DNA from: an uncultured Ruminococcus sp.
GTDB lineage: Bacteria > Bacillota > Clostridia > Monoglobales > Monoglobaceae
Assembly: GCA_902766745.1 (NCBI GenBank)
Contig: CACXES010000141.1
Location: 1 to 64,000, forward strand
Length of the DNA: 64,000 nucleotides
Reading direction: 5' to 3'
The position numbers and the translations under genes were made by a program. The notes under the pieces are model-generated. The model was not told where the DNA came from and did not search any database. It saw nothing but the letters and a program-made list of their open reading frames with translations. Shown piece after piece: positions 5,843 to 58,331 of the stretch; the stretch's first letter is position 1; each line of letters opens with the position of its first letter.

Positions 5843-7150
5843 ATGATGAGAATGGAAATAGCCTTGATTTTGGTTTTGGTTTTCGTCGCATTTATGTATT
5901 TTGGCGCAGACAGAAGAAATACCCCTCTGCACAAAACCTTTTCGGCACTGCTGATTATAACGCCGCTGCATCTTGCATTTGATGCCGCAACAGTTTATAC
6001 GGTAAATCACTTAGAAACTGTGCCGCCGTTTTTAAATGAAATTCTGCACAGGCTGTTTATCGGTACAATGGTGATTGTTGTATATTTATTTTACAGATAC
6101 ATTTCCATTTTGGTTGAGGAGGAAACAAAAAAGCCTGTACGCTTTCACCTTGCGGCAAGAATTTATTTGATTTTGGCAGAGCTTGAGACATTGCTTTTGC
6201 CCGTTCATTATGCGGTCACGGAAAAGGGAAATTATTCGGATGGTATTCATGTATCGGTCTGCTACATAAGCACTGCGTTTTATCTGTTTCTGTGCCTGTG
6301 GCTGCTGCTTAAAAACCGCAAGCAAATGGATAGGAAAAAGAAAGCGGCAATCGGTGTGGCACTCGTTATTGAGGGTATCGTTTCGGTTTTGCAGGCAATA
6401 AATCCCACCTGGCTGATTTCCGGAATGGGTATTACCCTGATGACGCTTGCCTTTTATTTAACTCTGGAAAATCCGGACATACTGCGTGCGGAGCTTACGG
6501 AACAGAAAATGTCCATGCTCTACTTAAAAAGTCAGGTAAATCCTCACTTTCTGTACAATACCCTTGATACAATCCGTATTCAGGCGCAGCTTAACGGCGA
6601 TAAAACAACGGCTGATTCACTTATGCGGTTATCCGACTTCTTTCGCCTTAGCATCAAGACGGACAAACAAATGACAGCCTTGGAGAATGAAACGGAGCTT
6701 TCGGATGCATACATGGAGCTGATGTGCTGCCGCTATCCCGAGCTTGAATACAGCTGTGACATTGATCCCGATTTGGGCGACGCATCGGTACCGAATTTTA
6801 TTCTTCAGCCGATTATCGAAAACAGCCTTCTTCATGGGCTTAAAAACAAAGGCTACCGTGGAAATATAACGGTAACGGCTGAAAGATCAAATCATAAACA
6901 AGACTGCATTGAAATTGAGGTATCGGATACCGGCAGCGGATTTGGCGAAGGCGTGAAAAGAAGGATTGACGAAATGCTCTTGAATTACGACAAGGAGAAA
7001 CCGAAGACAGAAAGCATAGGCATATTAAATGTTCAAAAGCGCATAAAGCTTTTGTGCGGCAAGGAGTTTGGTTTAAGCTACACAGAGAATACAGGCGGCG
7101 GTGTAACCGCTCATATACGGTTGCCGCTCGTGCGGGAGGAATATAAATGA
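5843..7150 (+). CDS. Sensor histidine kinase, LytS/YesM-type catalytic core
   Basis: Inner-membrane sensor kinase of a two-component system. The first 210 residues or so hold six or seven hydrophobic helices with no large extracellular loop, so the signal is probably sensed within or at the membrane. The His_kinase domain (Pfam His_kinase type, not HisKA) carries SQVNPHFLYNTLDTI with phospho-acceptor His235. The ATPase domain has the N-box QPIIENSLLHG and G-box SDTGSGFGEG. Its stop overlaps the start of the response regulator (ATGA at 7147-7150), so the pair is translationally coupled. A second ATG at 5846 is an equally possible start; AAGGAAG precedes both. Confidence 0.92.
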   Translation: MMRMEIALILVLVFVAFMYFGADRRNTPLHKTFSALLIITPLHLAFDAATVYTVNHLETVPPFLNEILHRLFIGTMVIVVYLFYRYISILVEEETKKPVRFHLAARIYLILAELETLLLPVHYAVTEKGNYSDGIHVSVCYISTAFYLFLCLWLLLKNRKQMDRKKKAAIGVALVIEGIVSVLQAINPTWLISGMGITLMTLAFYLTLENPDILRAELTEQKMSMLYLKSQVNPHFLYNTLDTIRIQAQLNGDKTTADSLMRLSDFFRLSIKTDKQMTALENETELSDAYMELMCCRYPELEYSCDIDPDLGDASVPNFILQPIIENSLLHGLKNKGYRGNITVTAERSNHKQDCIEIEVSDTGSGFGEGVKRRIDEMLLNYDKEKPKTESIGILNVQKRIKLLCGKEFGLSYTENTGGGVTAHIRLPLVREEYK

Positions 7151-7899
7151 GAATGCTCAAGGTACTTTTGGTTGACGATGAAATTATGATCAGAGAAGGC
7201 TTTAAGCACCTGTTCGATTGGGATAGTCATGGCTGTGAGGTTGTCGGCGAGGCTGCGGACGGAATGGAGGCGTTGGGGCAAATTGATGCGCTCCTTCCGG
7301 ATATTGTGATTATGGACATAAATATTCCGATTATGAACGGGTTAAAGGTTATTGAGGTAAGCCGCATCAAGCATCCGGAAATTGCTTATGTAATTGTATC
7401 GGGATATGATGACTTCGAATATTGCCGTCAGGCTCTGCGGCTGCAAATTACGGATTATATCCTAAAGCCCGTAAACTATGAGGAATTTGGCAGCTGCATC
7501 GACAATCTGAAAATATCCATGTACGAGAATAAGGCAAATGCGCAGGCGGACTCCGAAAACCGGGAGGAGCGCATTATTTCCTCTATCACGCGGTATATGC
7601 AGGAGCATTTGTCGGAGGAGATCAGCCTATCCGTTTTGGCGGATGAGTTTCACCTAAATCCACAGTATATCAGTCAGCTGTTTAAAACCGAAATCGGCGT
7701 GGGGTTTCTTGCCTATCTTACAAATATACGCATAGAAAAGGCAAAAAAGCTGCTGCTTTCCACAGCCCTTTCCGTAACCGAAATATCATCGCTCGCAGGC
7801 TACAGTGATTACAGAGTTTTTACAAAGGTGTTTAAAAAGACGGAGGGTGTTACACCGTCGAAGTTCAGGCGGGAGTTTCTGGACAGAGATAAACTATAA
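7147..7899 (+). CDS. Response regulator with receiver and AraC-type DNA-binding domain (YesN-like)
   Basis: Cytoplasmic transcription factor, partner of the kinase just upstream. The receiver (residues 4-122) has the acidic pair D10-D11, phospho-acceptor D57 in IVIMDINIP, the switch Ser in VIVSGYDD and the Lys in YILKPVNYE. A short linker is followed by two helix-turn-helix motifs of the AraC type (about residues 145-245: LSVLADEFHLNPQYISQLFK and VTEISSLAGYSDYRVFTKVFK). Its targets may be the small envelope genes that follow on the same strand, but no operator was identified. Confidence 0.93.
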   Translation: MRMLKVLLVDDEIMIREGFKHLFDWDSHGCEVVGEAADGMEALGQIDALLPDIVIMDINIPIMNGLKVIEVSRIKHPEIAYVIVSGYDDFEYCRQALRLQITDYILKPVNYEEFGSCIDNLKISMYENKANAQADSENREERIISSITRYMQEHLSEEISLSVLADEFHLNPQYISQLFKTEIGVGFLAYLTNIRIEKAKKLLLSTALSVTEISSLAGYSDYRVFTKVFKKTEGVTPSKFRREFLDRDKL

Positions 7900-33833: not shown

Positions 33834-33862
33834 TTGACAAATAAAAAAAATAGGTGTATAAT
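33834..33862 (+). promoter_or_regulatory. Consensus promoter of the glnN operon
   Basis: TTGACA (33834-33839), a 17-nt A-rich spacer and TATAAT (33857-33862). The expected start is near 33869, directly before a hexaloop hairpin and terminator. Confidence 0.88.
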
Positions 33863-33871: not shown

Positions 33872-33926
33872 AAGGCAAGGATGCCTTGAGGAAGTATTTT
33901 CCTTTAAGCATCCTTGTCTTTTTTTT
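33872..33926 (+). promoter_or_regulatory. Hexaloop hairpin overlapping an attenuator terminator (glnN leader)
   Basis: AAGGC-AAGGAT-GCCTT (33872-33887) forms a hairpin with a six-base loop having A at position 1 and G at position 4, the ANTAR recognition pattern. The loop and stem bases CAAGGATGC (33876-33884) alternatively pair with GCATCCTTG (33908-33916), enclosing AGGAA/TTCCT and followed by TCTTTTTTTT, a strong intrinsic terminator. The two structures are mutually exclusive. The glnN start codon is 43 nt downstream. Confidence 0.75.
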
Positions 33927-33968
33927 ATTAAATTTTATTAATTTTAAATTAAAGAGAGGTTGATTAAA

Positions 33969-36062
33969 ATGGAAACAGTACCGGAGATGTTTGGCGCTAA
34001 CGTATTTGACGACAGACAAATGAAAGCAAGGCTTTCCGAAAAGGTGTATAATTCATTGAGACGCACCATAGACGAAGGAAAACAGCTTGATATTTCACTT
34101 GCAAATGCAGTAGCGCTCGCAATGAAAGACTGGGCTGTTGAAAAGGGAGCCACTCACTACACACATTGGTTCCAGCCTATGACAGGCGTAACCGCTGAAA
34201 AACATGACAGCTTTATTACACCGGCTCCCGACGGCGGCGTGATCATGGAGTTCTCGGGCAAGGAGCTGGTTAAGGGTGAGCCGGACGCATCCTCGTTCCC
34301 CTCGGGCGGACTGAGAGCTACCTTCGAGGCGAGAGGCTATACGGCGTGGGATCCCACCTCGTTTGCATTTATAAAGGATAAAACCCTTTGTATTCCTACG
34401 GCTTTCTGCTCTTATACAGGCGAAGCTTTGGATAAAAAGACACCGTTGCTGCGCTCTATGGCGGCACTTAACACCCAGGCACTCAGAATTTTAAAGCTTT
34501 TCGGAAACGACAGTGTACATATGGTAAGAACGTCTGTCGGCCCCGAGCAGGAGTATTTCTTGGTTGACAAGGAAATGTACGACAAGCGCCGTGACCTGAT
34601 TTTCACCGGCAGAACCCTGTTCGGAGCAAAGCCGCCCAAGGGTCAGGAAATGGACGATCACTACTTCGGAATCATCAAGCCGAGGGTTGCGGCATTCATG
34701 GCTGATTTGAATGATGAGCTGTGGAAGCTGGGCATTTTGGCAAAGACGGAGCATAATGAGGTTGCACCCGCACAGCATGAGCTGGCACCGATTTATTCCA
34801 CAACAAATATTGCGACGGATAACAACCAGCTTACAATGGAGATTATGCAGAAGGTTGCATCAAAGCACGGCTTGGTTTGCCTGCTCCACGAAAAACCCTT
34901 TGCGGGCGTAAACGGAAGCGGAAAGCACAACAACTGGTCAATCGGAACGGATACAGGGGTAAACCTCTTAACTCCCGGAGATACGCCGTATGAGAATGCG
35001 CAGTTCCTGCTGTTCTTGGTTGCCGTTATCAAGGCAGTTGACGAATATCAGGATTTGCTTCGCCTGTCCGTTGCAACAGCGGGCAACGACCACCGTCTCG
35101 GCGCAAACGAGGCACCGCCTGCGGTAATTTCAATCTTCCTCGGTGATGAGCTTGAGGCGGTTCTTGAAGCAATTGAGAACGACACGGCGTACAAGGGTGA
35201 AAAAACAGCGAAGATGCAGCTTGGCGTAGACATTCTTCCCGTGTTCAAAAAGGATACTACCGACAGAAACAGAACCTCGCCCTTTGCGTTTACGGGCAAC
35301 AAGTTCGAATTCAGAATGCTCGGTTCGTCCAACAGCATTGCCTGTGCAAACATCATGCTCAACAGTGCGGTGGCTGAGGTGCTTCAGGGCTTTGCAGATA
35401 AGCTTGAGGGTTCTTCGGACTTTGACAAGGAGCTGCATGAGCTGATCCGCGATACCATTAAGGAACATAAGCGCATTATCTTTAACGGAAACGGCTACGG
35501 CGACGAGTGGATGGCTGAGGCAGAGAAGAGAGGTCTTTCAAACTTAAAGACTACGCCGGATTGTATGCCGAAGCTTCTCGATAAGAAAAATGCTGATATG
35601 CTTATCTCTCAGAAGGTATATACCAAGGCAGAGCTTGAGTCAAGATGCGAGATTATGCTTGAAAACTATGTAAAGGCAGTAAATATTGAGGCACTCACAA
35701 TGTCCGATATGGCAAGAAAAGAAATTTTACCGGCTGTTGAGGCATATGCTTCGTCCCTTGCAGAGACAGCTCTGCGGAAGAAGGAGCTTGGCGCAGATAT
35801 TTCACAGAGATACGAAAAGAGCGTGGTTTCCAAGCTTTCATCCCTGGCGGATTTGATTTATGACAGGACGGACGTGCTCGATGAGGCAACGGCAAAGCTT
35901 AAGGACATAGAAAGTATAGAAGAGCAGGGCTACTTTATTCGTGACGAAATTCTGCCGAAGATGGCGGCGCTCAGAGTTGCGGCGGACGAGGCAGAGACAA
36001 TGACCGACAGAAAGTATTGGCCGTTCCCGACCTACGGAGATTTGCTTTTCGGTGTAAGATAA
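33969..36062 (+). CDS. glnN: Glutamine synthetase, class III
   Basis: ATP-dependent ligation of ammonia to glutamate. At 697 aa it has the length of GlnN-type enzymes, much longer than GlnA (about 450). Diagnostic segments include [35 protein letters not shown] and the active-site loop [18 protein letters not shown], plus the [16 protein letters not shown] end of the catalytic core. ATG 33969 has AGAGAGG upstream. First gene of the glnN-amtB-asnB operon, read through the leader attenuator. A second, GlnA-type enzyme lies at 46931. Confidence 0.96.
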
Positions 36063-36122
36063 TTCAAAACTGTAAAAAATAATATATGTATTCATATGCA
36101 AAAATAATTGGGAGTGATTAAA

Positions 36123-37853
36123 TTGACAGTTGAATTTTGGTTTTTGATAGGAGCTGCGCTTGTATTTTGGATGCAGGCAGGGTTTGCAATGGTAGAGACG
36201 GGATTTACCCGTGCGAAGAACGCAGGTAACATTATAATGAAGAACCTGATGGACTTCTGTATCGGAACAGTTGTATTCTCGCTTTTGGGTTATACACTGA
36301 TGATGGGCGAGGATGCTTTGTTCGGACTCATCGGTATTCCGAACATGGATTTGTGGGGTAACTTCAAGGACTTCATTGCAAGTCCGGAGGATGGTTCGTT
36401 CACCGGTGCATCGACGTTTGTATTTAACCTCGTATTCTGTGCGACAACGGCTACGATTGTTTCCGGTTCGATGGCAGAGCGTACAAAGTTCTCATCCTAC
36501 TGTATCTATTCGGCGGTAATTTCACTGGTTGTATATCCGATAGAGGCACACTGGATTTGGGGCGGCGGCTGGCTTTCACAGCTCGGCTTCCACGATTATG
36601 CAGGTTCATGTGCAATACATATGGTAGGCGGTATCGCAGCTTTGGTCGGCGCAATAATGCTTGGGCCGAGAATCGGTAAGTATGTAAAGGATAAGAGCGG
36701 TAAGGTAGTAAAGGTAAACGCTATCCCCGGTCACTCAATCACCCTGGGTGCTCTCGGTGTATTCATCCTGTGGCTCGGCTGGTACGGATTTAACGGTGCT
36801 GCCGCTACATCTCCGTCAGAGCTGGCATCTATATTCCTCACCACAACAATTGCTCCTTCGGTTGCGACTGTTGTAACGATGATTTTCACATGGGTAAAGA
36901 ACGGAAAGCCTGATGTTTCGATGTGTCTGAATGCCTCACTTGCAGGTCTTGTAGGTATTACCGCAGGCTGTGATGCCCTTGACGCAATCGGTGCTTCCGT
37001 TGTAGGTATTGTATCCGGTATACTGGTAGTGGTTGTTGTTGAATTTTTGGATATTAAGCTTCACATTGACGACCCTGTCGGTGCAGTAGGCGTACATATG
37101 GCAAACGGTGTTTGGGGTACAATAGCGGTTGGACTTTTGGCTACACCGTCGGCTCCGGCAGAACTTGAAGGATTGTTCTATACAGGCTCTGCTTCGCTTC
37201 TCGGTACACAGATACTCGGTGTTCTGACAGTCGGTATATATGCAGCGGTAATGATGGTTATTACATTTACAATTATAAAGAAGACAAATGGTCTGAGAAC
37301 CTCTGCGGAGGAGGAAATTGCAGGTCTCGACAGCACCGAGCATGGTCTGCCCAGCGCATATCCCGATTTCACACCTGCGGTTGACAAGTACAGCGAATAC
37401 GGTGACGAGCCGGTAGTTGTAACGGGTACGACACCTGTCAGCGAGGCTGTTAAGGTTGAGAAGGTTCCCTCATTTGAAAAGCCGAGTGTGGACGGCGTTA
37501 AGTTCACAAAGGTTGAAATCGTATGTAAGGAAGCTCGCTTTGACGCATTGAAGAATGCTATGATGGCACTTGGTATAACAGGTATGACAGTATCTCACGT
37601 TATGGGCTGCGGACAGCAGAAGGGTAAGCCGGAGTATTACAGAGGTGTTGCCGTTGAGACAAATCTGCTGCCTAAGGTTCAGGTTGACATCGTTGTAAGT
37701 AAGATTCCGGTTAGAGATGTTATCGAGACGGCTAAGAAGGTGCTTTACACCGGACATATCGGCGACGGTAAGATATTTGTATATGACGTAGAGAACGTAG
37801 TAAAGGTAAGAACGGGTGAAGAAGGCTATGACGCCCTTCAGGACGTAGAATAA
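36123..37853 (+). CDS. amtB: Ammonium transporter fused to a C-terminal PII signalling domain
   Basis: Membrane ammonium channel with its own regulator. Residues 1 to about 400 form the Amt domain with eleven hydrophobic segments and the twin pore histidines in CAIHMVGGIAALVG and VGVHMANGVWGT. A linker (about 400-455) leads to a complete PII domain (about 459-570): FTKVEIVCKEARFDAL, a T-loop with EYYRGV, and the nucleotide-binding B-loop TGHIGDGKIFVY. The start is TTG 36123, placed 8 nt after GGGAGTG. It lies between glnN and asnB and probably blocks or opens the pore according to ATP/2-oxoglutarate levels. Confidence 0.94.
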   Translation: MTVEFWFLIGAALVFWMQAGFAMVETGFTRAKNAGNIIMKNLMDFCIGTVVFSLLGYTLMMGEDALFGLIGIPNMDLWGNFKDFIASPEDGSFTGASTFVFNLVFCATTATIVSGSMAERTKFSSYCIYSAVISLVVYPIEAHWIWGGGWLSQLGFHDYAGSCAIHMVGGIAALVGAIMLGPRIGKYVKDKSGKVVKVNAIPGHSITLGALGVFILWLGWYGFNGAAATSPSELASIFLTTTIAPSVATVVTMIFTWVKNGKPDVSMCLNASLAGLVGITAGCDALDAIGASVVGIVSGILVVVVVEFLDIKLHIDDPVGAVGVHMANGVWGTIAVGLLATPSAPAELEGLFYTGSASLLGTQILGVLTVGIYAAVMMVITFTIIKKTNGLRTSAEEEIAGLDSTEHGLPSAYPDFTPAVDKYSEYGDEPVVVTGTTPVSEAVKVEKVPSFEKPSVDGVKFTKVEIVCKEARFDALKNAMMALGITGMTVSHVMGCGQQKGKPEYYRGVAVETNLLPKVQVDIVVSKIPVRDVIETAKKVLYTGHIGDGKIFVYDVENVVKVRTGEEGYDALQDVE

Positions 37854-37865: not shown

Positions 37866-39443
37866 ATGTGTTCAATTATAGGCTGCTGCGGCAGCTGCCC
37901 GGACATTGAAAAGCTCAAAGAAGGATTTGACAGGACAATATCGAGAGGCCCCGACGATACGCGTATGGTTGAGGCAGGCAGCGGAGTTTTGGGTTTTCAC
38001 AGGCTTGCAATCATGGATTTGTGTGATACGGGAATGCAGCCGTTTGAGCTTGGCGGCAGTTATCTGGTTTGCAACGGCGAGATTTACGGGTTTAAGAAGC
38101 TAAAGGAGGAGCTTTCGTCAAAGTACAGCTTTACAAGTGATTCTGACTGCGAAATACTCCTGCCGATGTACAGAGAATACGGAACGGATATGTTTAAAAT
38201 GCTTGATGCGGAGTATGCGCTCATTATGTATGATGCGGAAACGGACGGCTTTATAGCCGCCCGTGATCCCATCGGGATCCGCCCAATGTACTACGGCTTC
38301 AATTCGGACGGCACCATAGTTTTTGCAAGCGAGCCGAAAAACCTTGTTTCCATATGCGATGAGATAATGCCGTTCCCTCCCGGATACTATTATAAGGACG
38401 GACAATTTATATGCTACCGTGATATGACGGAGGTAAAAGAGGTTTGCCGGGATGATTTGGACACAGTTTGCAAAAATATTCACGATAAGCTGATTTGCGG
38501 AATCGAGAAAAGGCTGGTAGCCGACGCTAAGGTCGGCTACCTCCTTTCGGGAGGATTGGATTCCTCCTTGGTTTGTGCCGTTGCGGCGAGATACAGCAGC
38601 GAGCCGATAAAAACCTTTGCGATAGGTATGAGTGAGGACGCAATCGACTTAAAATACGCAAAGCAGGTTGCTGATTATATAGGAAGCGAGCATACGGAGG
38701 TTATCATTACAAAGGATGATGTTATTTCATCTCTCGATACGGTAATCGAGCTTCTCGGAACATACGATATTACGACTATCCGCGCAAGCATGGGTATGTA
38801 TCTGCTTTGCAAGTATATACATGAGAACACGGATGTTCGAGTTTTGCTTACCGGTGAGATTTCGGATGAGCTTTTCGGATATAAGTACACGGATTTTGCC
38901 CCCTCGGCAGAGGAGTTTCAAAAGGAATCACAAAAGCGTGTGCGAGAGCTTCATATGTATGACGTGCTGCGTGCCGACAGATGTATATCAGTAAACTCCC
39001 TTGAGGCAAGAGTTCCCTTCGGTGATCTGGAATTTGTCGAATATGTGATGTCGATTGATCCGCAGATGAAAATGAACACCTATGGCAAGGGAAAATACCT
39101 GCTCCGTCATGCTTTTGAGGGCGACTATCTGCCCCACGATATACTATACCGTGAGAAGGCGGCGTTCTCCGATGCGGTCGGACATTCTATGGTGTGGTAC
39201 TTAAAGGATTATGCCGAAAAATATTATACCGATGAAGAGTTTGAAGAGAAGAAAAAGAAGTATGCTCATGCGGCACCTTTTACAAAGGAATCGCTTCTCT
39301 ACCGTGAGATTTTTGAGAGATATTATCCCGGCCAGAGCGAGATGATAAAGGACTTCTGGATGCCGAACAAGTCTTGGGAGGGCTGTGATGTGGACGATCC
39401 GTCCGCTCGTGTTCTTTCAAACTACGGCGCAAGCGGAATTTAA
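37866..39443 (+). CDS. asnB: Asparagine synthetase, glutamine-hydrolysing
   Basis: Makes asparagine from aspartate, ATP and glutamine. The 525-aa protein begins MCSIIG, with Cys2 as the glutaminase nucleophile; the N-terminal Ntn domain (NGEIYGF, RGPDDTR, FHRLAIMD) is followed by the synthetase domain with the PPi loop LLSGGLDSSLV. Last gene of the glnN operon, 12 nt after amtB. A 19-bp hairpin begins at its stop codon. Confidence 0.95.
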   Translation: MCSIIGCCGSCPDIEKLKEGFDRTISRGPDDTRMVEAGSGVLGFHRLAIMDLCDTGMQPFELGGSYLVCNGEIYGFKKLKEELSSKYSFTSDSDCEILLPMYREYGTDMFKMLDAEYALIMYDAETDGFIAARDPIGIRPMYYGFNSDGTIVFASEPKNLVSICDEIMPFPPGYYYKDGQFICYRDMTEVKEVCRDDLDTVCKNIHDKLICGIEKRLVADAKVGYLLSGGLDSSLVCAVAARYSSEPIKTFAIGMSEDAIDLKYAKQVADYIGSEHTEVIITKDDVISSLDTVIELLGTYDITTIRASMGMYLLCKYIHENTDVRVLLTGEISDELFGYKYTDFAPSAEEFQKESQKRVRELHMYDVLRADRCISVNSLEARVPFGDLEFVEYVMSIDPQMKMNTYGKGKYLLRHAFEGDYLPHDILYREKAAFSDAVGHSMVWYLKDYAEKYYTDEEFEEKKKKYAHAAPFTKESLLYREIFERYYPGQSEMIKDFWMPNKSWEGCDVDDPSARVLSNYGASGI

Positions 39444-41831: not shown

Positions 41832-41860
41832 TTGACAAACATCTAAAACAGTGATATAAT
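41832..41860 (+). promoter_or_regulatory. Consensus promoter of the glutamate synthase operon
   Basis: TTGACA (41832-41837), a 17-nt spacer and TATAAT (41855-41860). The expected start is about 41867, right at the hexaloop hairpin. The stretch from dapL to here (41691-41831) holds only a small TGTGC-TTCG-GCACA hairpin. Confidence 0.88.
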
Positions 41861-41868: not shown

Positions 41869-41926
41869 ATAGACAAAGATGTTTATTTTTAGGGATATTA
41901 TACCCTAAAAATGACATCTTTTTTTT
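41869..41926 (+). promoter_or_regulatory. Hexaloop hairpin overlapping an attenuator terminator (GOGAT leader)
   Basis: ATAGAC-AAAGAT-GTTTAT (41869-41886) is a 6-bp stem (one G-U) with a hexaloop having A1 and G4. The same bases, AAAGATGT, pair alternatively with ACATCTTT (41914-41921), enclosing TTTTTAGGG/CCCTAAAAA and ending in eight T residues: an intrinsic terminator. The layout matches the glnN leader base for base in concept. The GATase start codon follows at 41946. Confidence 0.75.
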
Positions 41927-41945: not shown

Positions 41946-43037
41946 ATGAAACTTAAAGAAGGTCAGATAAGAATACCGTCGGGCTGTGCAATATCGGCAG
42001 TTATCTCCCGTGAGGGAAAGAGGATGACGGGCGAGAAAATTATTGAGAGCATGAAGCCCATGCATGATCGTTCAAACGGCTTGGGCGGCGGCTTTGCGGC
42101 TTACGGGATATATCCCGAGTACAAGGAATTTTATGCTCTGCACATATTTTACGACGATAACACTTCAAGGCATACCTGTGAGCAGTTTTTGAAAGACGGC
42201 TTTGAAATAGTGCGTGCGGAGAACATTCCGACCCGAAAGCATAAAAACATTACCGATGAGCCTTTGATATGGAGATATTTTGTTGCGCCGCTGGCATCGG
42301 TTCTGGCGAGAATGCAGCTTGATGAAAAGGAGTATACCGCCAGAATTGTGATGAAGATAAACACTGAGATTGACGGTGCATACGTCTTTTCCAGCGGAAA
42401 GAATATGGGCGCATTCAAGGCGGTCGGCTACCCCGAGGACGTCGGCGAATTCTACCGTCTTGACGAATACGGCGCATATCTTTGGACTGCCCACGGAAGA
42501 TACCCGACCAACACCCCCGGCTGGTGGGGCGGTGCGCATCCCTTCGGACTTTTGGATTACACAATTGTGCATAACGGCGAGATTTCGTCCTATGACGCAA
42601 ACAGACGCTTCATCGAAATGTTCGGGTATAAGTGTACCCTTCAGACAGATACAGAGGTCATTACCTACATTGCCGATTACCTAATGAGAAAGCAGGGCTT
42701 GACCCTGGAGGAGACTGCGTCCGTTATTGCGGCACCGTTCTGGAGTACAATAGAGAACCGTGAGGACAAGGAGCTTCTTAAATACCTGCGCTGCACCTAC
42801 GGCGGCTTACTGATTACCGGGCCTTTCTCGATTATCCTCGGCTTTAACGGCGGACTTATGGCTCTTAACGACAGACTGAAGCTTCGCAGCATGGTTGTGG
42901 GCGAAAAGGACGATAAGATCTTTATCGCCAGCGAAGAGGCGGCTATCCGCACCATGGAGCCGGATGCAGAGAATATCTATTCACCCGCAGGCGGAGAGCC
43001 GGTTATTGTAAGGGTTAAGGAGGGCGTTGAATTATGA
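41946..43037 (+). CDS. Glutamate synthase glutaminase (class II amidotransferase) subunit
   Basis: Hydrolyses glutamine to supply ammonia to the synthase. The 363-aa protein corresponds to the N-terminal Ntn-amidotransferase domain of GltB as a separate chain. Cys14 in IPSGCAISAVI is the probable nucleophile, which would need removal of a 13-residue leader as in GltB; AHGRYPTNTPGWWGGAHPF and HNGEISSYDANR are the typical glutamine-site motifs. It overlaps the next gene by 4 nt. First of five genes that together rebuild a glutamate synthase. Confidence 0.9.
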   Translation: MKLKEGQIRIPSGCAISAVISREGKRMTGEKIIESMKPMHDRSNGLGGGFAAYGIYPEYKEFYALHIFYDDNTSRHTCEQFLKDGFEIVRAENIPTRKHKNITDEPLIWRYFVAPLASVLARMQLDEKEYTARIVMKINTEIDGAYVFSSGKNMGAFKAVGYPEDVGEFYRLDEYGAYLWTAHGRYPTNTPGWWGGAHPFGLLDYTIVHNGEISSYDANRRFIEMFGYKCTLQTDTEVITYIADYLMRKQGLTLEETASVIAAPFWSTIENREDKELLKYLRCTYGGLLITGPFSIILGFNGGLMALNDRLKLRSMVVGEKDDKIFIASEEAAIRTMEPDAENIYSPAGGEPVIVRVKEGVEL

Positions 43038-44539
43038 GTATAAATTACATATACCCGGAGTACGAGGTTGTCAGAAATGACGCAAGATGTATTAGGTGCC
43101 GCGTCTGTGAGCGGCAGTGTGCGAACGAGGTTCACAGCTATGACGAGGAGCGGAATTTGTTAATCAGCGACGAGGCGAAGTGCGTCAACTGCAAAAGATG
43201 CGTAACCCTCTGTCCCACACATGCTTTGAAGATAGTCAAGAGTGACTGCCGCTTTAAGGAAAACGCAAACTGGACGGACGATACCATTCGCGAGATATAC
43301 AAGCAGGCGGAAAGCGGCGGCGTACTGCTCTCGTCCATGGGTAACCCGAAGCCGCTTCCCGTTTACTGGGATAAGATTTTGATTAATGCGTCACAGGTTA
43401 CAAACCCGTCCATCGACCCCCTGCGTGAGCCGATGGAAACCAAGGTTTTCCTCGGGAAAAAGCCGGATAAAGTAAAGAGAGATGAAAACGGAAATATAAT
43501 ATGCAAGACATCGCCGCAGCTTGAGCTTTCGATACCGATTATGTTTTCGGCAATGAGCTACGGCTCGATTAGCTATAACGCCCACGCATCATTGGCGAGA
43601 GCGGCAACGGAGCTGGGCATTTACTACAATACCGGTGAGGGCGGACTCCACGAGGATTTCTATCAGTACGGTCCGAATACGATCGTACAGGTTGCATCGG
43701 GACGCTTTGGCGTACATAAGGATTACCTCGAAGCGGGAGCCGCAGTGGAGATTAAAATGGGACAGGGCGCAAAGCCCGGTATCGGCGGACATCTTCCGGG
43801 TGCGAAGATTGTCGGAGATGTATCGAGAACGAGAATGATCCCCGAAGGCTCCGATGCGATTTCACCGGCACCTCACCACGACATTTACTCAATCGAGGAT
43901 CTGCGTCAGCTTGTTTATTCATTAAAAGAGGCAACAGAGTATAAGAAGCCTGTTATCGTAAAGGTTGCGGCGGTGCATAATATTGCGGCGATTGCCAGCG
44001 GTATTGCACGAAGCGGTGCGGATATCATTGCCATAGACGGCTTCAGAGGCGGCACGGGAGCCGCACCCACCAGAATCCGTGACAATGTGGGAATCCCCAT
44101 AGAGTTAGCTTTGGCAAGTGTGGATCAGCGACTGCGCGATGAGGGAATAAGAAATAACGTGTCCCTTGTGGTCGGTGGAAGTATAAGGTGTGCCTCTGAT
44201 GTGGTAAAGGCAATCGCCCTCGGAGCGGATGCCTGCTATATCGCAACGGGTGCGCTGCTTGCCCTCGGATGTCACCTTTGCCGAAGCTGCCAGGGCGGCA
44301 AGTGCAACTGGGGTATTGCGACACAGAGACCGGAGCTTACAAAGAGATTGAATCCGGACATTGGCTCACAGAGACTTATAAACCTTATGACCGCATGGAA
44401 GCATGAGATAAAGGAGCTTATGGGCGGAATGGGTATAAACTCCATCGAAGCGTTAAGAGGTAACCGCTTAATGCTGAGAGGTGTAGGATTAAACGGAAAG
44501 GAGCTTGAGATATTAGGTATCTCACACGCAGGAGAATGA
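43034..44539 (+). CDS. Glutamate synthase FMN-binding subunit with ferredoxin domain
   Basis: Catalytic core that makes glutamate from 2-oxoglutarate and ammonia. Residues about 15-75 hold two [4Fe-4S] motifs (CIRCRVCERQC, CVNCKRCVTLCP). The rest is the GltB FMN barrel: FSAMSYGSISYNAHASLA, MGQGAKPGIGGHLPG, IDGFRGGTGAAPT, and the 3Fe-4S site CHLCRSCQGGKC. The 501-aa archaeal-type arrangement is common in anaerobes. Translationally coupled on both sides (ATGA). Confidence 0.93.
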   Translation: MSINYIYPEYEVVRNDARCIRCRVCERQCANEVHSYDEERNLLISDEAKCVNCKRCVTLCPTHALKIVKSDCRFKENANWTDDTIREIYKQAESGGVLLSSMGNPKPLPVYWDKILINASQVTNPSIDPLREPMETKVFLGKKPDKVKRDENGNIICKTSPQLELSIPIMFSAMSYGSISYNAHASLARAATELGIYYNTGEGGLHEDFYQYGPNTIVQVASGRFGVHKDYLEAGAAVEIKMGQGAKPGIGGHLPGAKIVGDVSRTRMIPEGSDAISPAPHHDIYSIEDLRQLVYSLKEATEYKKPVIVKVAAVHNIAAIASGIARSGADIIAIDGFRGGTGAAPTRIRDNVGIPIELALASVDQRLRDEGIRNNVSLVVGGSIRCASDVVKAIALGADACYIATGALLALGCHLCRSCQGGKCNWGIATQRPELTKRLNPDIGSQRLINLMTAWKHEIKELMGGMGINSIEALRGNRLMLRGVGLNGKELEILGISHAGE

Positions 44540-44967
44540 AAAAGATATATGTAAATGAAGAATGGTGCCTGGGATGTCATCTTTGCGAATATAACTGTGC
44601 GTTTGCGGCAACGGGAGATAAGTTTATGTCTCTGGCGCTTAAGGATAAGGAAATTCGTCCGAAAATTCATGTTGAGGACGACGGAAAGATTATGTATGCA
44701 GTATCGTGCAGACACTGCGAAGATGCAATTTGTGTAAAATCCTGCATATCGGGAGCGCTGTCCAAGGAGGACGGAATTGTTAAAATTGATAAGGACAAAT
44801 GCATCGGTTGTCTGACCTGTGTTTTGGTATGCCCCTACGGTGCGCTCGTGCCGAACGAGGGGAAGGCGGTTACAAAGTGCGAGCTTTGTACCGATAACAA
44901 ATGCGGAGAGCCGGCCTGTGTTAAAGGCTGTCCCAATAATGCGATATGCTTTGAGGAGAGAGGATAA
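44536..44967 (+). CDS. 4Fe-4S ferredoxin-type electron-transfer subunit
   Basis: A 143-aa polyferredoxin of the HycB/DmsB type with four cysteine clusters: CLGCHLCEYNC, CRHCEDAICVKSC, CIGCLTCVLVC and CELCTDNKCGEPACVKGC. It probably carries electrons between the FAD subunit encoded next and the FMN subunit before it. It overlaps the preceding gene by 4 nt and the following gene by 1 nt. Confidence 0.9.
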   Translation: MKKIYVNEEWCLGCHLCEYNCAFAATGDKFMSLALKDKEIRPKIHVEDDGKIMYAVSCRHCEDAICVKSCISGALSKEDGIVKIDKDKCIGCLTCVLVCPYGALVPNEGKAVTKCELCTDNKCGEPACVKGCPNNAICFEERG

Positions 44968-46193
44968 TGAAGAATTATGTTGTTGTCGGAGGGGGAATTG
45001 CCTCTCTCGGATGTATAGACGGTATTTTGGAGAACGACAGGGAGGGCAGAATAACGCTCATCTGCGGCGAGGACAGACTTCCCTATTCGCGGCCGCTGAT
45101 TTCGTACTATCTTGAGGAGAAGACAACCTTAGAGAAAATGCAGTACCGCAGCGAGGAATTTTTTAAGAATAATAATATAGAAGTAAAGCTCGGTGTTCAT
45201 GCCGAAAAAATAGAAGCTGATACAGTTGTTTGCGATAACGGCGAAAAGGTGGCATATGACAAGCTGCTGGTCGCAACCGGGTCATCGCCCTTCGTGCCGC
45301 CGATATCCGGTCTTGACAGCGTAGAAAAGAAATTCACGTTTATGACCGAGGCGGATGCACTTGCGCTTGAAGCGGCAATAGATAAGGATTCGAGGGTTTT
45401 GATTGTCGGTGCGGGCTTGATCGGCTTGAAGTGTGCCGAGGGTATTGCGGATAAGGTTTCTGAGATAACGGTCTGTGATTTGGCGGATAAGGTTTTGTCG
45501 AGCATTCTTGATAAGGATTGCGCAGATTTGGTAAAAGAGAAGATGGAGGAGCGCGGAATAAAATTCATGCTGTCGGACAGCGTTGAGAAATTCGATGGCG
45601 GAAGGGCGACCATGAAGAGCGGCGGTACGGTTGAATTTGACGTGCTTGTTATGGCTGTCGGAGTAAGACCGAATTTAACTCAGCTCAAAGAGACGGGTGC
45701 AGAGATCAACAGAGGCGTGCTGGTAAATGACAAGATGGAGACTTCGCTTTCAAATATTTATGCCGCAGGTGATTTGACCGAGGGTATGGATATTTCAAGC
45801 GGTACCGAGAAGGTTATGGCGATTCTTCCGAATGCATATATGCAGGGATTTTGCGCCGGTAAAAATATGTCGGGCGGTGACTGCGTGTTCGATAATCAGA
45901 TACCAATGAATTCAATAGGGTTTTTCGGCTATCATATTATGACCGCCGGCAGCTATGACGGAGAGCTGTACGAGGAAAAGTCGGGCGATTCCGTAAAGAA
46001 GCTTTATGTCAAGGACAACCGTCTTGTGGGTCTGATATTTTTGGGAAGTGTGGATAAGGTTGGAATTTATACCTCGCTTATCCGAAATAAAACGCCTCTC
46101 GACACCATAGATTTTGAGAAAATCAAAAAAAATCCGTCACTTTTGGCATTTTCTCAAAATTACCGTAGAAAAAATCTTGGAGGTGTGTTATAA
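44967..46193 (+). CDS. FAD/NAD(P)-dependent oxidoreductase subunit
   Basis: A 408-aa flavoprotein of the pyridine-nucleotide disulfide reductase-like family (NADH:rubredoxin reductase type). It has the N-terminal FAD site VVVGGGIASLGC, RPLISYYL, the NAD(P) site VLIVGAGLIGLKCAEG and the second FAD site IYAAGDLTEG. It likely takes electrons from NAD(P)H for the split glutamate synthase, replacing GltD. Joined to neighbours by TAATG junctions. Confidence 0.9.
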   Translation: MKNYVVVGGGIASLGCIDGILENDREGRITLICGEDRLPYSRPLISYYLEEKTTLEKMQYRSEEFFKNNNIEVKLGVHAEKIEADTVVCDNGEKVAYDKLLVATGSSPFVPPISGLDSVEKKFTFMTEADALALEAAIDKDSRVLIVGAGLIGLKCAEGIADKVSEITVCDLADKVLSSILDKDCADLVKEKMEERGIKFMLSDSVEKFDGGRATMKSGGTVEFDVLVMAVGVRPNLTQLKETGAEINRGVLVNDKMETSLSNIYAAGDLTEGMDISSGTEKVMAILPNAYMQGFCAGKNMSGGDCVFDNQIPMNSIGFFGYHIMTAGSYDGELYEEKSGDSVKKLYVKDNRLVGLIFLGSVDKVGIYTSLIRNKTPLDTIDFEKIKKNPSLLAFSQNYRRKNLGGVL

Positions 46194-46912
46194 TGCATAT
46201 AGATGCATCAAAGCTTGAGTTCGGAGAGCTTAACGAGATAATCAGAAATACCGAGGCGGACGTGGAAATCACGGGCTGTATGGGGCAGAGATTTATTGCG
46301 GCAGGACTCAGTGATCGGAAGATAAGCATTGAAGGCGTGCCGGGGAATGCTCTCGGTGCTTACCTCAACGGTGCAAAAATAACCGTTGGCGGAAATGCCC
46401 AGGATGCGGTCGGCGATACCATGAACGAGGGCGGAATCTATATCCGCGGAAGCGTAGGCGATGCGGCAGGCTACGCCATGCGCGGCGGAGAGATTTTTGT
46501 CAGAGGCAATGCCGGCTATCGTGCGGGAATCCACATGAAGGCGTACAAGGAAAAGCATCCCACCCTTGTCATAGGAGGCAGAGCAGGGAGCTTCCTCGGT
46601 GAGTATCAGGCGGGCGGAACCATTGTTGTGCTCGGATTGAATGAGGACGGAAAGAGCATTGTGGGCAACTTCCCCTGCACCGGTATGCACGGAGGAAAGA
46701 TGTTTCTGCGCGGCAGCTGTGAGGGGATAGCATTTCCGAAGCAGGTGACAACTCACCTTGCGGATGAGGCGGAAAAGGCAGAGCTTAGACCGTTGGCGGA
46801 GCGCTTCTGTGCCATGTTCGATTTAGATACCGATGAGATTATGAATGAGGACTTTACCGTTGTGCTTCCCGATACAAAGAACCCCTTCAAGCAGATGTAT
46901 GTTACCAATTAA
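46193..46912 (+). CDS. Glutamate synthase GXGXG-domain subunit
   Basis: A 239-aa right-handed beta-helix protein matching the C-terminal GltB domain, encoded separately. It has the repeated glycine pattern (GNALGAYLNGAKITVGGNAQ, GGIYIRGSVGDAAGYAMRGG, GGTIVVLGL, GMHGGKMFLRG). It completes the five-piece synthase. The start codon overlaps the stop of the oxidoreductase (TAATG). Confidence 0.92.
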   Translation: MHIDASKLEFGELNEIIRNTEADVEITGCMGQRFIAAGLSDRKISIEGVPGNALGAYLNGAKITVGGNAQDAVGDTMNEGGIYIRGSVGDAAGYAMRGGEIFVRGNAGYRAGIHMKAYKEKHPTLVIGGRAGSFLGEYQAGGTIVVLGLNEDGKSIVGNFPCTGMHGGKMFLRGSCEGIAFPKQVTTHLADEAEKAELRPLAERFCAMFDLDTDEIMNEDFTVVLPDTKNPFKQMYVTN

Positions 46913-46930: not shown

Positions 46931-48136
46931 ATGATTTATAGCAAGAAAGAGGTTATCCAGTATGTAAACGAGGAGGATGTCAAGTTCATCAGACTTGCTT
47001 TCTGCGACGCCTTTGGAAATCAGAAGAATATTTCCGTTATGCCGGATGAGCTTGAACGTGTCTTTGAGGACGGCGCAGGTATTGACGCTTCGGCAATTTT
47101 GGGATTTGGCGGCGAGGTGTTTTCGGATTTGTTTTTGTTCCCCGATCCGTCGACGCTTGTCGTTTTGCCATGGCGGCCGGAGCACGGAAGAGTTGTCAGA
47201 ATGTTCTGTAATATTATGCATTCAAACGGTAAGCCGTTTGAAGCGGACGGCAGAAGAATACTGCGCGAGGCTGTAAAGGCAGCCATGAGTGAGGGCTATA
47301 CCTTTCAGTTCGGTTCGGAGCTTGAATTTTATCTGTTCCACACGGATGAGGAGGGCAAGCCGACAAAAATTCCGTATGATAATGCCCGCTATATGGATAT
47401 TGCGCCAATGGATAAGGGCGAGAATGTCCGCCGTGAGATATGTCTTACGTTGGAGAGAATGGGCATAAAGCCGGAGAGCTCCCATCACGAGGAGGGCTTC
47501 GGTCAGAATGAGATTGACTTCAGGTTTTCTGATCCGCTGACTGCGGCGGATAATGCAATAACCTTTGTCTCGGTGGTCAGGACTATTGCGGCGCGGAACG
47601 GACTTTGTGCCGACTTTTCGCCGAAGCCCCTTGAAGACAACCCGGGTAACGGATTCCATATTAATTTGTCGGTTCAAAGCATAAATGCGGAAACGGATTT
47701 GTTCCCTTATGCGATTGCCGGAATTTTAAACAGGGTTCGTGATATGACTGCGTTTCTGAATCCGAGAGAGGAATCCTATGCACGGCTCGGAACGGACAAG
47801 GCACCGAAGTATATTACCTGGTCGCCGGAGAATAGGTCACAGCTTATCAGAATACCTGCCGCACGGGGAAATTATAAGAGAATAGAACTGCGCTCTCCTG
47901 ATCCCTGTGCAAATCCGTATCTTGCGTTTGCGCTTATTATCTATGCGGCACTTGACGGGCTTAAGAACAAGGAGCTTCCGCCGGCGGCTGTAAATGAGAA
48001 TTTGTATAAATCGGAGAATACCGAAGACTATGCAAGTCTTCCTGAAAATTTATGTGAGGCAAAGACTGCGGCGAAGAGCAGTGAGTTTATAGAGAATGCA
48101 CTGCCGTCGCGTATCGTTCGGACATACTGCGAATAG
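46931..48136 (+). CDS. glnA: Glutamine synthetase, GlnA-like (short type I)
   Basis: Second glutamine synthetase of the window. At 401 aa it is about 40 residues shorter than standard type I enzymes. It has the N-terminal beta-grasp start FIRLAFCDAFGNQKN, metal-binding FGSELEFYLF and GQNEIDFR, GNGFHINLSV (active-site His), ENRSQLIRIP and the substrate site RIELRSPDPCANPYLA. The Tyr-adenylylation segment of proteobacterial GlnA is not evident. It lies inside the GOGAT operon with the SD GAGAGGTTGGAGG, so both halves of the GS-GOGAT cycle are coexpressed. Confidence 0.92.
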   Translation: MIYSKKEVIQYVNEEDVKFIRLAFCDAFGNQKNISVMPDELERVFEDGAGIDASAILGFGGEVFSDLFLFPDPSTLVVLPWRPEHGRVVRMFCNIMHSNGKPFEADGRRILREAVKAAMSEGYTFQFGSELEFYLFHTDEEGKPTKIPYDNARYMDIAPMDKGENVRREICLTLERMGIKPESSHHEEGFGQNEIDFRFSDPLTAADNAITFVSVVRTIAARNGLCADFSPKPLEDNPGNGFHINLSVQSINAETDLFPYAIAGILNRVRDMTAFLNPREESYARLGTDKAPKYITWSPENRSQLIRIPAARGNYKRIELRSPDPCANPYLAFALIIYAALDGLKNKELPPAAVNENLYKSENTEDYASLPENLCEAKTAAKSSEFIENALPSRIVRTYCE

Positions 48137-48156: not shown

Positions 48157-48744
48157 ATGCTGTTTAAGGAATACACATACAGCGTTTTGATTGTGTCATC
48201 CTCCGAAAAATTTGCCGCAAGTATAAAGTCCATGCTCCCCGAAAACGAGTTTGGACCTGTTAGATTTGCGAAAAATGAGGGCGAGGCGCGCAGAAAACTC
48301 GCTGATATGAATTTTGATACGGTTATTATTAATACGCCGCTTGTTGATGATTTCGGGACAGGGCTTGCGCTTGACGTTGCCGCCGATACCAGAAGCGGCG
48401 CATTGATGTTTGTAAAAGACGAATTATATGATGATGTAACCGACAGGGTTATCGACTATGGTGTGCTGACCATGTCAAAGCCCGTTTCGGCGTCAATGGT
48501 GCATCAGGTGTTTAAGATTATGTATGCAATGCAGGAGAGATTTCGCCGTATGGAGAAGAAGGCGGCAACTCTCGAGGAGAAAATGGAAGAGATAAGGCTG
48601 ATTAACCACGCCAAGTGGACTCTCATTCAGCACATGAAGCTGACCGAGGCGGAGGCGCATAAGCTGATAGAGAAGCAGGCGATGGATACAAGACGGACAA
48701 AGCGTGAGATTGCTGAGGGTATAATCAGAACCTACGGAAATTGA
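48157..48744 (+). CDS. ANTAR-domain RNA-binding antiterminator with degenerate receiver
   Basis: A 195-aa regulator. Residues about 8-120 have a receiver fold but lack the phosphorylation residues: the acidic pair is replaced by S14-S15-S16 (VLIVSSSEKF) and the phospho-acceptor Asp by N59 (TVIINTPLVDD); Lys108 in MSKPVS is kept. A coiled coil (about 122-145) leads to the ANTAR domain (about 133-190: HAKWTLIQHMKLTEAEAHKLI, MDTRRTKREIAEGII). ANTAR proteins bind hexaloop hairpins to prevent termination; both nitrogen operon leaders here carry such hairpins. It lies 20 nt after glnA, so it probably controls its own operon and glnN. Confidence 0.92.
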   Translation: MLFKEYTYSVLIVSSSEKFAASIKSMLPENEFGPVRFAKNEGEARRKLADMNFDTVIINTPLVDDFGTGLALDVAADTRSGALMFVKDELYDDVTDRVIDYGVLTMSKPVSASMVHQVFKIMYAMQERFRRMEKKAATLEEKMEEIRLINHAKWTLIQHMKLTEAEAHKLIEKQAMDTRRTKREIAEGIIRTYGN

Positions 48745-50382
<1,638 letters not shown>

Positions 50383-50791: not shown

Positions 50792-51073
50792 CTATGATAT
50801 GACTTCAAAATAAAACTGAGGGCTCTCCTTATGAACATCCGCAAATACAGCAATAACCTCGTTCATATAATTTTGTAAATCCTTTGGCATTGTTTTAATT
50901 CCTTTTATTTTTACAAAAGTAGGCGAGCAATCATAATAGTAATCACTCAAAAGATCCCATAGGGCGTCAAGGTTCCGCCCAAACCAGTCCGGAAAGCCGA
51001 AGCCCTCCTGAATTATGTCGTATAACCTCATAATATACTTACATCCGGTAAAATCCAATATTATTTCTTTCAT
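50792..51073 (-). CDS. Barstar family ribonuclease inhibitor
   Basis: A 93-aa intracellular immunity protein expected to bind and block a barnase-type RNase. It has the barstar start KEIILDFTGC, the helix and loop FGFPDWFGRNLDALWDLLSDYY (with Asp and Trp that contact the toxin) and the C-terminal VFADVHKESPQFYFEVI. It lies 6 nt after the stop of a decayed barnase-like frame in the usual toxin-then-immunity order. The ribosome site AAAGGAG is 14 nt upstream, inside the toxin end. Confidence 0.88.
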   Translation of the reverse strand: MKEIILDFTGCKYIMRLYDIIQEGFGFPDWFGRNLDALWDLLSDYYYDCSPTFVKIKGIKTMPKDLQNYMNEVIAVFADVHKESPQFYFEVIS

Positions 51074-56426: not shown

Positions 56427-58331
56427 ATGGAGTTAGTAGGTAAAATGCTTGCGGGCCGCTATGAGATTTTAGAGGAAGTCGGTAAGGGCGGCATGGCGTA
56501 TGTATATAAGGCACGATGCCATTATCTTAACAGGCTGGTCGCAATAAAGGTTCTAAAGGAGGAGCTGAGCGACGACAAGGAGTTTGTGCATAGATTCAAT
56601 ACCGAGGCACAGGCGGCGGCACGTATTTCAAATCCTCATGTTGTGTCGATCTATGATGTCGGATTTGAAAACGGATTGTATTATATTGTAATGGAGTATG
56701 TGGACGGAATAACATTAAAGGAGTACATCTCCGAAAAGCATGTGCTTCCCTGGAAGCAGGCGGCGGAGTTTGCGGCTCAGATATGCGAGGGATTGTCTGC
56801 CGCACATAAGCAGTCGGTTATACACAGGGACATTAAGCCTCAGAACATAATCATGACCGACAAGGAGGTGCTTAAGGTCACCGACTTCGGCATAGCAAGG
56901 GCCACAACACAGGCGACAACCACCTCGGCAACATCCACAATCGGGACGGTTCATTACCTTTCGCCCGAACAGGCGCGCGGCGGCTATACCAACGAAAAAA
57001 CGGATATATATTCCCTCGGTGTGGTTTTGTACGAAATGCTGACAGGGAGACTTCCGTTCGACGATAATACGGCGGTTGCCATTGCAATCAAGCATATCCA
57101 GGAAAAACCGGTTCTGCCGCGGATTTTAAACAACGATATTCCGCAGGCGATGGAAGATATTGTTATGAAGGCGCTTAATAAGGAGCAGAATTTGAGATAT
57201 GCAAGCGCAGACGCATTCCTCGCCGATTTGAGAAAGGTAATTAAAAATCCGAATATCGCACTTGGAGCAAGTGCGGATATGGCGGATGCCACCGTGAAGA
57301 GAACTCCGGTCGGAGATGACGATATAGACAGATACGAGAGGGCACGTCGGGCATCAAACGAGGAATATAACCGATACGCCGAGGATATAGATCGGGATGT
57401 GGAGGAGAACAGAAGAAAGTATATGGAAAGACAAAGAGCAGTTAAGGCACAGAAGAAGAAGGAGAAGCGCATTACCATTGCGGCAATTGCAGCGGCGATT
57501 GTTGTTTTGGCAGGACTTTTTCTTGTGGTAAAGGGACCGCTTGCCGATATATTCGGCACAGGTGACAAGGTTGAAATTCCGAATCTAATCGACATGAAGC
57601 TGACTGACGCACAGAATCAGTATAAGCAGCAGGGCTTCAGTATTGTGAAAAACGGTGAACGCGCAAGCGATAAGGAGGCAGGAGTTATCCTCGAACAGGA
57701 TAAGGCGGCAGGAACCAAGGTATCGGGCAAGGATGTAAGGATTTTTGTTGTTGTCAGCAGCGGTTCGGCTTCGGCTGCGGCAGATAAAACGATCGGCGAT
57801 TATACAAAGCTGAAGGTCGATGAGGCAAAGAAAAAGATTGCGGCAGACGGCTTCAGAGTAAATGTTATAGAAGAAAACAGCGATGATGTTGCCAAGGATC
57901 TGGTAATTCGCCAGGAGCCGGCAGCGAACAGCAAGGCGGCGAGCGGAAGCCTTATTACCTTGTATGTAAGCAAGGGAAAGAGCAGTGAGGCAAACGACAG
58001 CACAAACAGCACCAATAGCACTAATAATACAAATAACGGCAATACGACGAATCAGAATAACACGACGAATCAAAACAACACAAACAATCAAAACAATAAT
58101 CAGACAAATCAGAATACGACGGGTACCTCGGGCAATAACGGTTCGACAGGCAGCGGAAGCTCCTCGGGAACGGGCGGCGGAAGCTCTTCGGGTTCAAGCT
58201 CCGGTGCTGCCTCCGGCAGCGGCACGGGCGGAGCGTCAGGCGGCGGAACGGGCGGAACCTCGGGCGGAGCATCAGGCGGCAGCGGAAGCTCCTCGACCGA
58301 GACTCAGGCACCCCCGGCAATTTCAAACTGA
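56427..58331 (+). CDS. prkC: PASTA-domain Ser/Thr protein kinase (PrkC/Stk)
   Basis: Membrane eukaryotic-type kinase sensing muropeptides or lipid II. The 634-aa protein has the kinase domain (about 10-275: GKGGMAYVY, AIKVLKEE, HRDIKPQNI, TDFGIA), an activation loop rich in Thr (ATTQATTTSATST), one membrane helix (about 348-369) and two extracellular PASTA repeats (about 381-446 and 447-514). The last 120 residues are low-complexity Asn/Thr then Gly/Ser (NSTNNTNNGNTTNQNN, GSGTGGASGGG), unusual for PrkC and perhaps a wall-spanning spacer. Two PASTA repeats is fewer than the usual three. Confidence 0.95.
   Translation: MELVGKMLAGRYEILEEVGKGGMAYVYKARCHYLNRLVAIKVLKEELSDDKEFVHRFNTEAQAAARISNPHVVSIYDVGFENGLYYIVMEYVDGITLKEYISEKHVLPWKQAAEFAAQICEGLSAAHKQSVIHRDIKPQNIIMTDKEVLKVTDFGIARATTQATTTSATSTIGTVHYLSPEQARGGYTNEKTDIYSLGVVLYEMLTGRLPFDDNTAVAIAIKHIQEKPVLPRILNNDIPQAMEDIVMKALNKEQNLRYASADAFLADLRKVIKNPNIALGASADMADATVKRTPVGDDDIDRYERARRASNEEYNRYAEDIDRDVEENRRKYMERQRAVKAQKKKEKRITIAAIAAAIVVLAGLFLVVKGPLADIFGTGDKVEIPNLIDMKLTDAQNQYKQQGFSIVKNGERASDKEAGVILEQDKAAGTKVSGKDVRIFVVVSSGSASAAADKTIGDYTKLKVDEAKKKIAADGFRVNVIEENSDDVAKDLVIRQEPAANSKAASGSLITLYVSKGKSSEANDSTNSTNSTNNTNNGNTTNQNNTTNQNNTNNQNNNQTNQNTTGTSGNNGSTGSGSSSGTGGGSSSGSSSGAASGSGTGGASGGGTGGTSGGASGGSGSSSTETQAPPAISN

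Follow-up and report, generated by a model that had tools for sequence, protein, structure and literature searches.

How is an ANTAR antitermination protein controlled when its receiver domain lacks the residues that normally take up phosphate? The question is raised by a gene of an uncultured Ruminococcus sp., located at 48157–48744 (+, ATG start) of contig CACXES010000141.1; the first 64,000 nt of this contig, the whole stretch of DNA analysed, are referred to as the window. The gene encodes a protein of 195 aa comprising a pseudo-receiver, a coiled coil and an ANTAR domain (48568–48726, +). It is the single ANTAR gene found in the genome, a 2.85-Mb draft that is 93% complete.

Structure of the ANTAR protein and its pseudo-receiver

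Membership of the ANTAR family is clear from Pfam, where PF03861 matches residues 138–190 with an E-value of 5.5e-16 and 58.5 bits against a curated cut-off of 27.3. The Response_reg model aligns with residues 10–116 at 17.2 bits, below its 30.2-bit cut-off, and no NCBIfam model matched the protein in a meaningful way. AlphaFold predicts the structure with confidence (pLDDT 91.2, pTM 0.69), and the model matches EutV over the whole length, with 188–190 residues aligned and Z of 17.4–17.7. Since this confident model aligns with EutV, the positions discussed below can be taken as the true active-site positions.

In a profile alignment to EutV (6wsh), the VDD of EutV falls on V13–S14–S15 and D54 falls on N59. 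The preliminary description of this DNA had placed an SSS at residues 14–16 where the acidic pair is expected, an Asn at the phospho-acceptor position, N59, and a retained lysine at K108. Sequence and EutV alignment agree with it, with one refinement: the pair itself corresponds to S14–S15 (codons 48196–48201, +), and S16 stands in for the Glu that follows the acidic pair of EutV. The N59 codon is at 48331–48333 (+) and that of K108, the conserved receiver lysine, at 48478–48480 (+); the homologue alignment supports all these assignments. Of the features of a phospho-activated regulator of the EutV type, the protein retains the conserved lysine and lacks the acceptor Asp and the acidic pair. 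Nor does a cognate histidine kinase gene adjoin the ANTAR gene, as had been stated earlier: the only histidine kinase found in the 64-kb window (5843–7150) lies 41 kb away and has its own AraC-type regulator. Together (5843–7899), they form a complete classical two-component pair of a YesM-like kinase and an AraC-type regulator with a full receiver.

A class-wide profile search, with an alignment of relatives as the query, gave matches in 245 of 393 genomes. The matches fall into two score groups, at least 148 bits and at most 117 bits; the high-scoring clade is present in 117 genomes. Conservation was assessed in 124 unique clade sequences taken from the family, the order and the class. Position 59 is N in 107 of these, D in seven, H in five, S in four and V in one, and an acidic residue is absent at positions 14–16 in 121. 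Other positions are kept: P61 in 123 sequences, L62 in 118, K108 in 110 and K/R87 in 109. N59 also occurs in 73 of 79 named loci, a biased sample, as part of it was retrieved with an N-containing pattern. Homologues with an intact Asp, which the preliminary description would have counted against itself if found in the same gene context, do exist in part; there are seven with D59, six of which nonetheless have no acidic residue at 14–16 and so no metal site.

Judged from these alignments, the receiver cannot take up phosphate in the usual way, and this holds across the clade. The loss of the site is, by the same evidence, old and maintained, since N59, P61 and L62 are conserved and the acidic pair is missing across the clade sequences; it goes with a new conserved motif, N-x-P-L-x-D. 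Because the acidic pair that binds metal and the phospho-acceptor have both been lost clade-wide, it is well supported by sequence that activity is set otherwise than by the usual Asp phosphorylation, as had been proposed. ANTAR domains are enriched among Asp-less receivers (PMC4395418, in part).

Covalent control of another kind, for example, Ser/Thr phosphorylation by a PASTA kinase, is very improbable. Such a kinase (56427–58331) and a PP2C phosphatase are encoded 7–8 kb downstream of the ANTAR gene, and Streptomyces GlnR is under control of this type (PMC12632262, in part), but no other sign connects the kinase with the ANTAR gene.

M176, a presumed hexaloop contact, is found in 203 of 203 ANTAR sequences; H168, found in 198 of 203, aligns with Tyr164 of EutV, which stacks on G4 of the hexaloop, and AmiR likewise has His here. 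The roles of the EutV contact residues are taken from PMC8934654 (in part).

Nitrogen operons of the window

The ANTAR gene lies in a forward-strand operon that starts with five split glutamate synthase genes (amidotransferase, FMN, Fe–S, oxidoreductase and GXGXG; 41946–46912, +), followed by glnA (46931–48136, +), the ANTAR gene itself and, probably, pyrG; the gap between glnA and the ANTAR gene is 20 nt. A second nitrogen operon, 12 kb upstream of the ANTAR gene, contains glnN, encoding a type III glutamine synthetase (GSIII; 33960–36062, +), a gene for an ammonium transporter (amt) fused to a C-terminal PII domain (36108–37853, +) and the asparagine synthase gene asnB (37866–39443, +), all three being predicted targets of the ANTAR protein; dapF and dapL, named by eye, come next. 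Another type III glutamine synthetase is encoded elsewhere in the genome (G000 contig 123, 51055–53133), and no hexaloop leader is found upstream of it.

The presence of amt-PII in the glnN operon brings PII control to mind. This reading, too, has very little probability: amt is nearby in only 20 of the 117 class loci, and the PII domain here is tethered to a membrane protein.

Architecture of the leader RNA

Both operons begin with the same arrangement. A predicted consensus promoter, recognised by eye, is followed after 9 nt (glnN) or 10 nt (gltB) by a hairpin whose loop of six bases has A at the first and G at the fourth position. For glnN, the promoter (33834–33862, +) consists of TTGACA at 33834–33839 and TATAAT at 33857–33862, and the hairpin is AAGGC[AAGGAT]GCCTT (33872–33887, +). 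For gltB, the promoter (41832–41860, +) consists of TTGACA at 41832–41837 and TATAAT at 41855–41860, and the hairpin is AGAC[AAAGAT]GTTT (41871–41884, +). In each case, the loop and 3′ arm of the hairpin double as the 5′ arm of an intrinsic terminator; the glnN terminator (33872–33926, +) has arms at 33872–33884 and 33908–33920, then a T run, and the gltB terminator (41875–41926, +) has arms at 41875–41883 and 41913–41921 and a T run at 41919–41926. The RNA elements before glnN and gltB go beyond the preliminary description. In the four leaders of this genome, the first 18–20 nt alone fold with −2.8 to −7.3 kcal/mol and the full leaders with −20 to −27 kcal/mol.

A strict scan of 2.92 Mb of loci returned 242 sites, 229 of them distinct, versus two in a dinucleotide-shuffled copy. 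The 5′ arm of the hairpin begins a median of 9 nt past the −10 box. With regard to the dual-hexaloop targets of other ANTAR proteins, an A1/G4 hexaloop competing with a terminator is present and the second, upstream hexaloop is not: another A..G.. hairpin occurs within 60 nt upstream in 13 of 229 sites, a stretch that is mostly promoter, and within the terminator loop in three of 229. As a control, ten eutB loci were scanned under loose settings, which yielded 18 rows, five with an upstream hexaloop; all three eut leaders judged true by eye (two in L329, one in L338) have the expected pair of hexaloops. Covariation is seen in the P1 stem, where five of six pairs change on both sides, and in the terminator stem, where seven of ten do, in rows picked by a scan that itself requires pairing. 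Rfam at gathering scores gave no match in the window and only the lysine riboswitch in seven leader-bearing loci, so the leader belongs to no described family in the loci searched. In one case (L351, complement; genome G086), two full hexaloop–terminator units stand in tandem (163, 253) before a single glnN; no ANTAR gene was found there.

Predicted regulon

The strict sites precede glnN (94), the gltB amidotransferase gene (52), glnA (26), pyrG (9), asnB (9), amt (4) and gltFMN (1), with 25 unassigned and nine without an ORF. Eight of the unassigned targets were named by NCBIfam as glmS, guaA, gdhA (three), purA, asnA and a non-discriminating aspS; visual inspection of the rest suggests that a few are spurious. 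A scan with a five-T requirement misses leaders with shorter T runs, and the counts given here come from the scans that replaced it. A search of the window's own genome revealed further leaders before purF (an NCBIfam name) and a gene for a circularly permuted ATP-grasp protein. The latter (L288, 156–1478, −) is an unexpected target with the same leader type.

The ANTAR operon has this leader as well, so self-control of the ANTAR gene is expected. This could suggest that the protein is always active, the pseudo-receiver being a locked dimer, and that only its amount is controlled, via the leader of its own operon. Such an arrangement is improbable, as positive feedback by itself supplies no nitrogen signal, and NitR, another ANTAR protein encoded beside glnA, acts upon nitrogen limitation (PMC6316151, in part).

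Distribution of the leader and the ANTAR gene

ANTAR presence in the order, called by PF03861, was established for 27 of 51 genomes. Where the start of the main glnN gene was readable, the glnN hexaloop leader was found in 20 of 22 ANTAR-plus genomes of the order versus two of 18 ANTAR-minus genomes; these numbers exclude G050, whose ANTAR frame is truncated, three loci in which the glnN start could not be read, and four second glnN copies. The four second copies, including that of the window's genome, have no hexaloop, and several ANTAR-minus genomes retain, as judged by eye, the promoter and a hairpin without the hexaloop. In G002 and G003 the ANTAR gene is present, the glnN leader is absent and an aspS leader is present.

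Across the class, the covariance model R1 matched 75 of 117 clade genomes versus 46 of 276 others at E ≤ 0.01 (p 1e-19), missing 42 of the 117. The model was built on the terminator form, scores weakly and also matches ordinary terminators, so more weight is given to the strict scan and the glnN leaders. Among 12 non-clade R1 matches at E ≤ 3e-4, nine genomes have a weaker ANTAR-profile match and three (G082, G086 and G387) have none; in G387, an R1 match was obtained and ANTAR was not detected. Leaders without a detected ANTAR gene occur in G043, G044, G082 and G086, where gene loss and an assembly gap look alike because all four are drafts. Comparative sequence evidence shows both the RNA switch, a bistable leader with a single hexaloop, and its association with the ANTAR protein.

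The proposed GlnA-like partner

In 97 of 117 loci of the class sample and in 70 of 80 named loci, glnA immediately precedes the ANTAR gene. The two are also gained and lost together: among the 51 genomes of the order, 26 have both the ANTAR gene and a GlnA-like gene, one has the former alone, one the latter alone and 23 have neither (p 2.8e-12). GlnA-like genes were called here at E ≤ 1e-80; three weak matches near 1e-31 (G023, G031 and G044) were not counted, as they share about 30% identity and score far lower than the others. ORFs fetched for the analysis were searched for ANTAR–GlnA fusions and none was found.

The GlnA of the window, a 401-aa degraded type I glutamine synthetase, scores 328.9 bits and does not pass the GlnA equivalog model (cut-off 429.15). 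In Salmonella/Bacillus numbering, it carries the substitutions S53A, R62G, N264P and E327K, the last at K290 (codon 47798–47800, +), in place of the flap glutamate. S53 and Arg62 have roles in the feedback of Bacillus glutamine synthetase (GS). All six metal ligands and D50 are retained in the window's protein. According to PMC6529630 (in part), the metal ligands of GS are E129, E131, E212, E220, H269 and E357; glutamate is bound by E131, N264, R321 and R359, and E327 and D50 are essential for glutamine synthesis.

Degradation varies among the 106 clade-linked GlnA proteins: 32 are intact at all 12 checked residues, 32 carry a substitution in one or more metal ligands and 49 retain Glu327. None of the GlnA proteins of 69 named loci is intact at the 12 residues, and nine have a changed metal ligand. 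Beside other ANTAR proteins (n = 14), 13 GlnA proteins are intact and none has a metal ligand changed. The losses differ by lineage, and mapping the metal-ligand state onto a tree of 203 GlnA sequences gives a minimum of 15 changes; the state of the most recent common ancestor was not used, as the rooting leaves it uninformative. R321 and R359 are invariant in all 203. The most degraded partners, L022 and L023 (G003 and G002), carry E129D, H269S, E327N, R339S, R344K and E357M; their genomes have the leader before a tRNA-Asn-type aspS, not before glnN.

GSIII is encoded in 115 of 117 clade genomes versus 136 of 276 others (p 3.6e-25). This is the pattern expected if GSIII did the chemistry and the GlnA-like protein served as a regulatory partner. 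Some clade-linked GlnA proteins, possibly including that of the window, may nevertheless be working or altered enzymes, since the window's protein keeps its metal site and D50 and 32 of 106 are intact; the adjacency of glnA and the ANTAR gene might then reflect co-expression only. GS relatives with altered substrates, such as PauA7 and GlnA4, have been described (PMC6529630, in part). GSIII was also considered as the partner and rejected: in the order, 24 genomes have both glnN and the ANTAR gene, 19 glnN only, three the ANTAR gene only and five neither (p 0.45).

Among the inputs suggested in the preliminary description, linkage and degradation thus favour the neighbouring GlnA, while GlnN and PII are less likely, because the link between GlnN and ANTAR is absent and amt is near in so few loci. 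A small molecule (glutamine, 2-oxoglutarate or another anion) bound in the old phospho-pocket, with GlnA as a merely co-regulated neighbour, is an unlikely alternative, though a better one than the others weighed here. The pocket residues N59, K/R87 (109/124) and K108 (110/124) are retained though phosphate chemistry is lost, and pseudo-receivers that bind ligands are known (PMC12632262, in part), but a ligand in the pocket would leave both the joint gain and loss of the two genes and the degradation of GlnA unexplained.

Proposed mechanism

The ANTAR protein is probably a NitR-like, kinase-free antiterminator with the GlnA-like partner as its likely input. Its ANTAR domain would bind a single hexaloop hairpin, C[AANGRY]G, at the 5′ terminus of mRNAs for enzymes of ammonia and glutamine metabolism; this hairpin would be the first structure to form during transcription. 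The hairpin so held would block the terminator, which needs the same bases, and allow RNA polymerase to read through. When nitrogen is ample, the GlnA-like protein may bind glutamine or a related ligand and keep the ANTAR protein inactive, as AmiC does with AmiR; GlnN (GSIII) would be left to make glutamine. Targets in the window's genome would be the glnN operon, the gltB–glnA–ANTAR operon (self-control), purF and the circularly permuted ATP-grasp gene. The direction of control, with activity when nitrogen is short, is suggested by analogy with NitR (PMC6316151, in part), and contact between the GlnA-like and ANTAR proteins by analogy with AmiC–AmiR, NasS–NasT and GS–TnrA; we infer the dimer state and the ligand of the ANTAR system.

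A bolder form of this proposal, that two retired halves work together, has a little less than an even chance of being right. Here, a pseudoenzyme GS would sense nitrogen and directly control a pseudo-receiver ANTAR protein, which would govern a regulon via single-hexaloop antiterminators at the message start (+1), without a kinase or a second hexaloop. If true, a sensor derived from glutamine synthetase would act on RNA throughout the class Clostridia. The mechanism predicts that many ‘glutamine synthetases’ of Clostridia, including gut species, act as regulators, glutamine synthesis being left to GSIII.

Comparison with known systems

Pseudo-receiver ANTAR proteins (AmiR) and the location of NitR beside glnA are already known. 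NitR of Clostridium saccharobutylicum, which is reported to antiterminate GS/GOGAT genes when nitrogen is limiting (PMC6316151, in part), is among the closest known systems: the ANTAR gene directly follows glnA, the receiver is a pseudo-receiver and a single hexaloop starts the glnA leader, as here. However, the NitR of G190, presumably this species, belongs to another subfamily by sequence, with 67.9 bits to the clade profile compared with at least 148, and has Gly rather than Asn at position 59. The GlnA of G190 retains the residues compared (E131, E220, H269, flap E327, R359 and R62), whereas that of the window has K for E327.

EutV and Rv1626 share the order of receiver, coiled coil and ANTAR domain and an A1/G4 hexaloop that overlaps a terminator (PMC3369931 and PMC8934654, both in part). 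EutV, unlike the window's system, is phosphorylated at Asp54 by EutW and requires two hexaloops. Kinase-free ANTAR proteins restrained by a nutrient-sensing partner are exemplified by AmiR–AmiC (PMC8934654, in part) and NasT–NasS (PMC3795266, in part); AmiC binds amides and NasS responds to nitrate/nitrite, whereas the partner here would be a GS relative. The use of GS as a sensor acting on a regulator resembles Bacillus GS–TnrA (PMC6316151, in part), but Bacillus GS is active and TnrA binds DNA, while the GS-like protein is often degraded here and its predicted target binds RNA.

What is new, as far as the searches reach, is the N-x-P-L-x-D clade, the wide spread of leaders with one hexaloop at +1, together with the regulon downstream of them, and the degraded synthetase as candidate partner. 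No published account of single-hexaloop ANTAR antiterminators or of a pseudo-GS partner was found in the open-access literature, which does not include the original NitR paper (Stutz 2007). Walshe et al. 2022 (PMC8934654, in part) raise the question of how widely ANTAR proteins make use of single hexaloops, two being needed by EutV in their view; the hundreds of natural one-hexaloop leaders at the message start make this question testable. Similarly, a 2025 review (PMC12632262, in part) calls the activation and inactivation of bacterial pseudo-receivers still a mystery, and the present clade, with a single strongly linked candidate partner, makes the question of their input testable.

Region downstream of the ANTAR gene

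The ANTAR gene is followed on its 3′ side by pyrG (CTP synthase; 48748–50382, +), which is probably co-transcribed with it; the same gene order is seen in 18 of 117 class loci. Between pyrG and fmt, a small ORF on the opposite strand (50792–51073, −) encodes a 93-aa protein, presumably barstar-like, as judged by eye.
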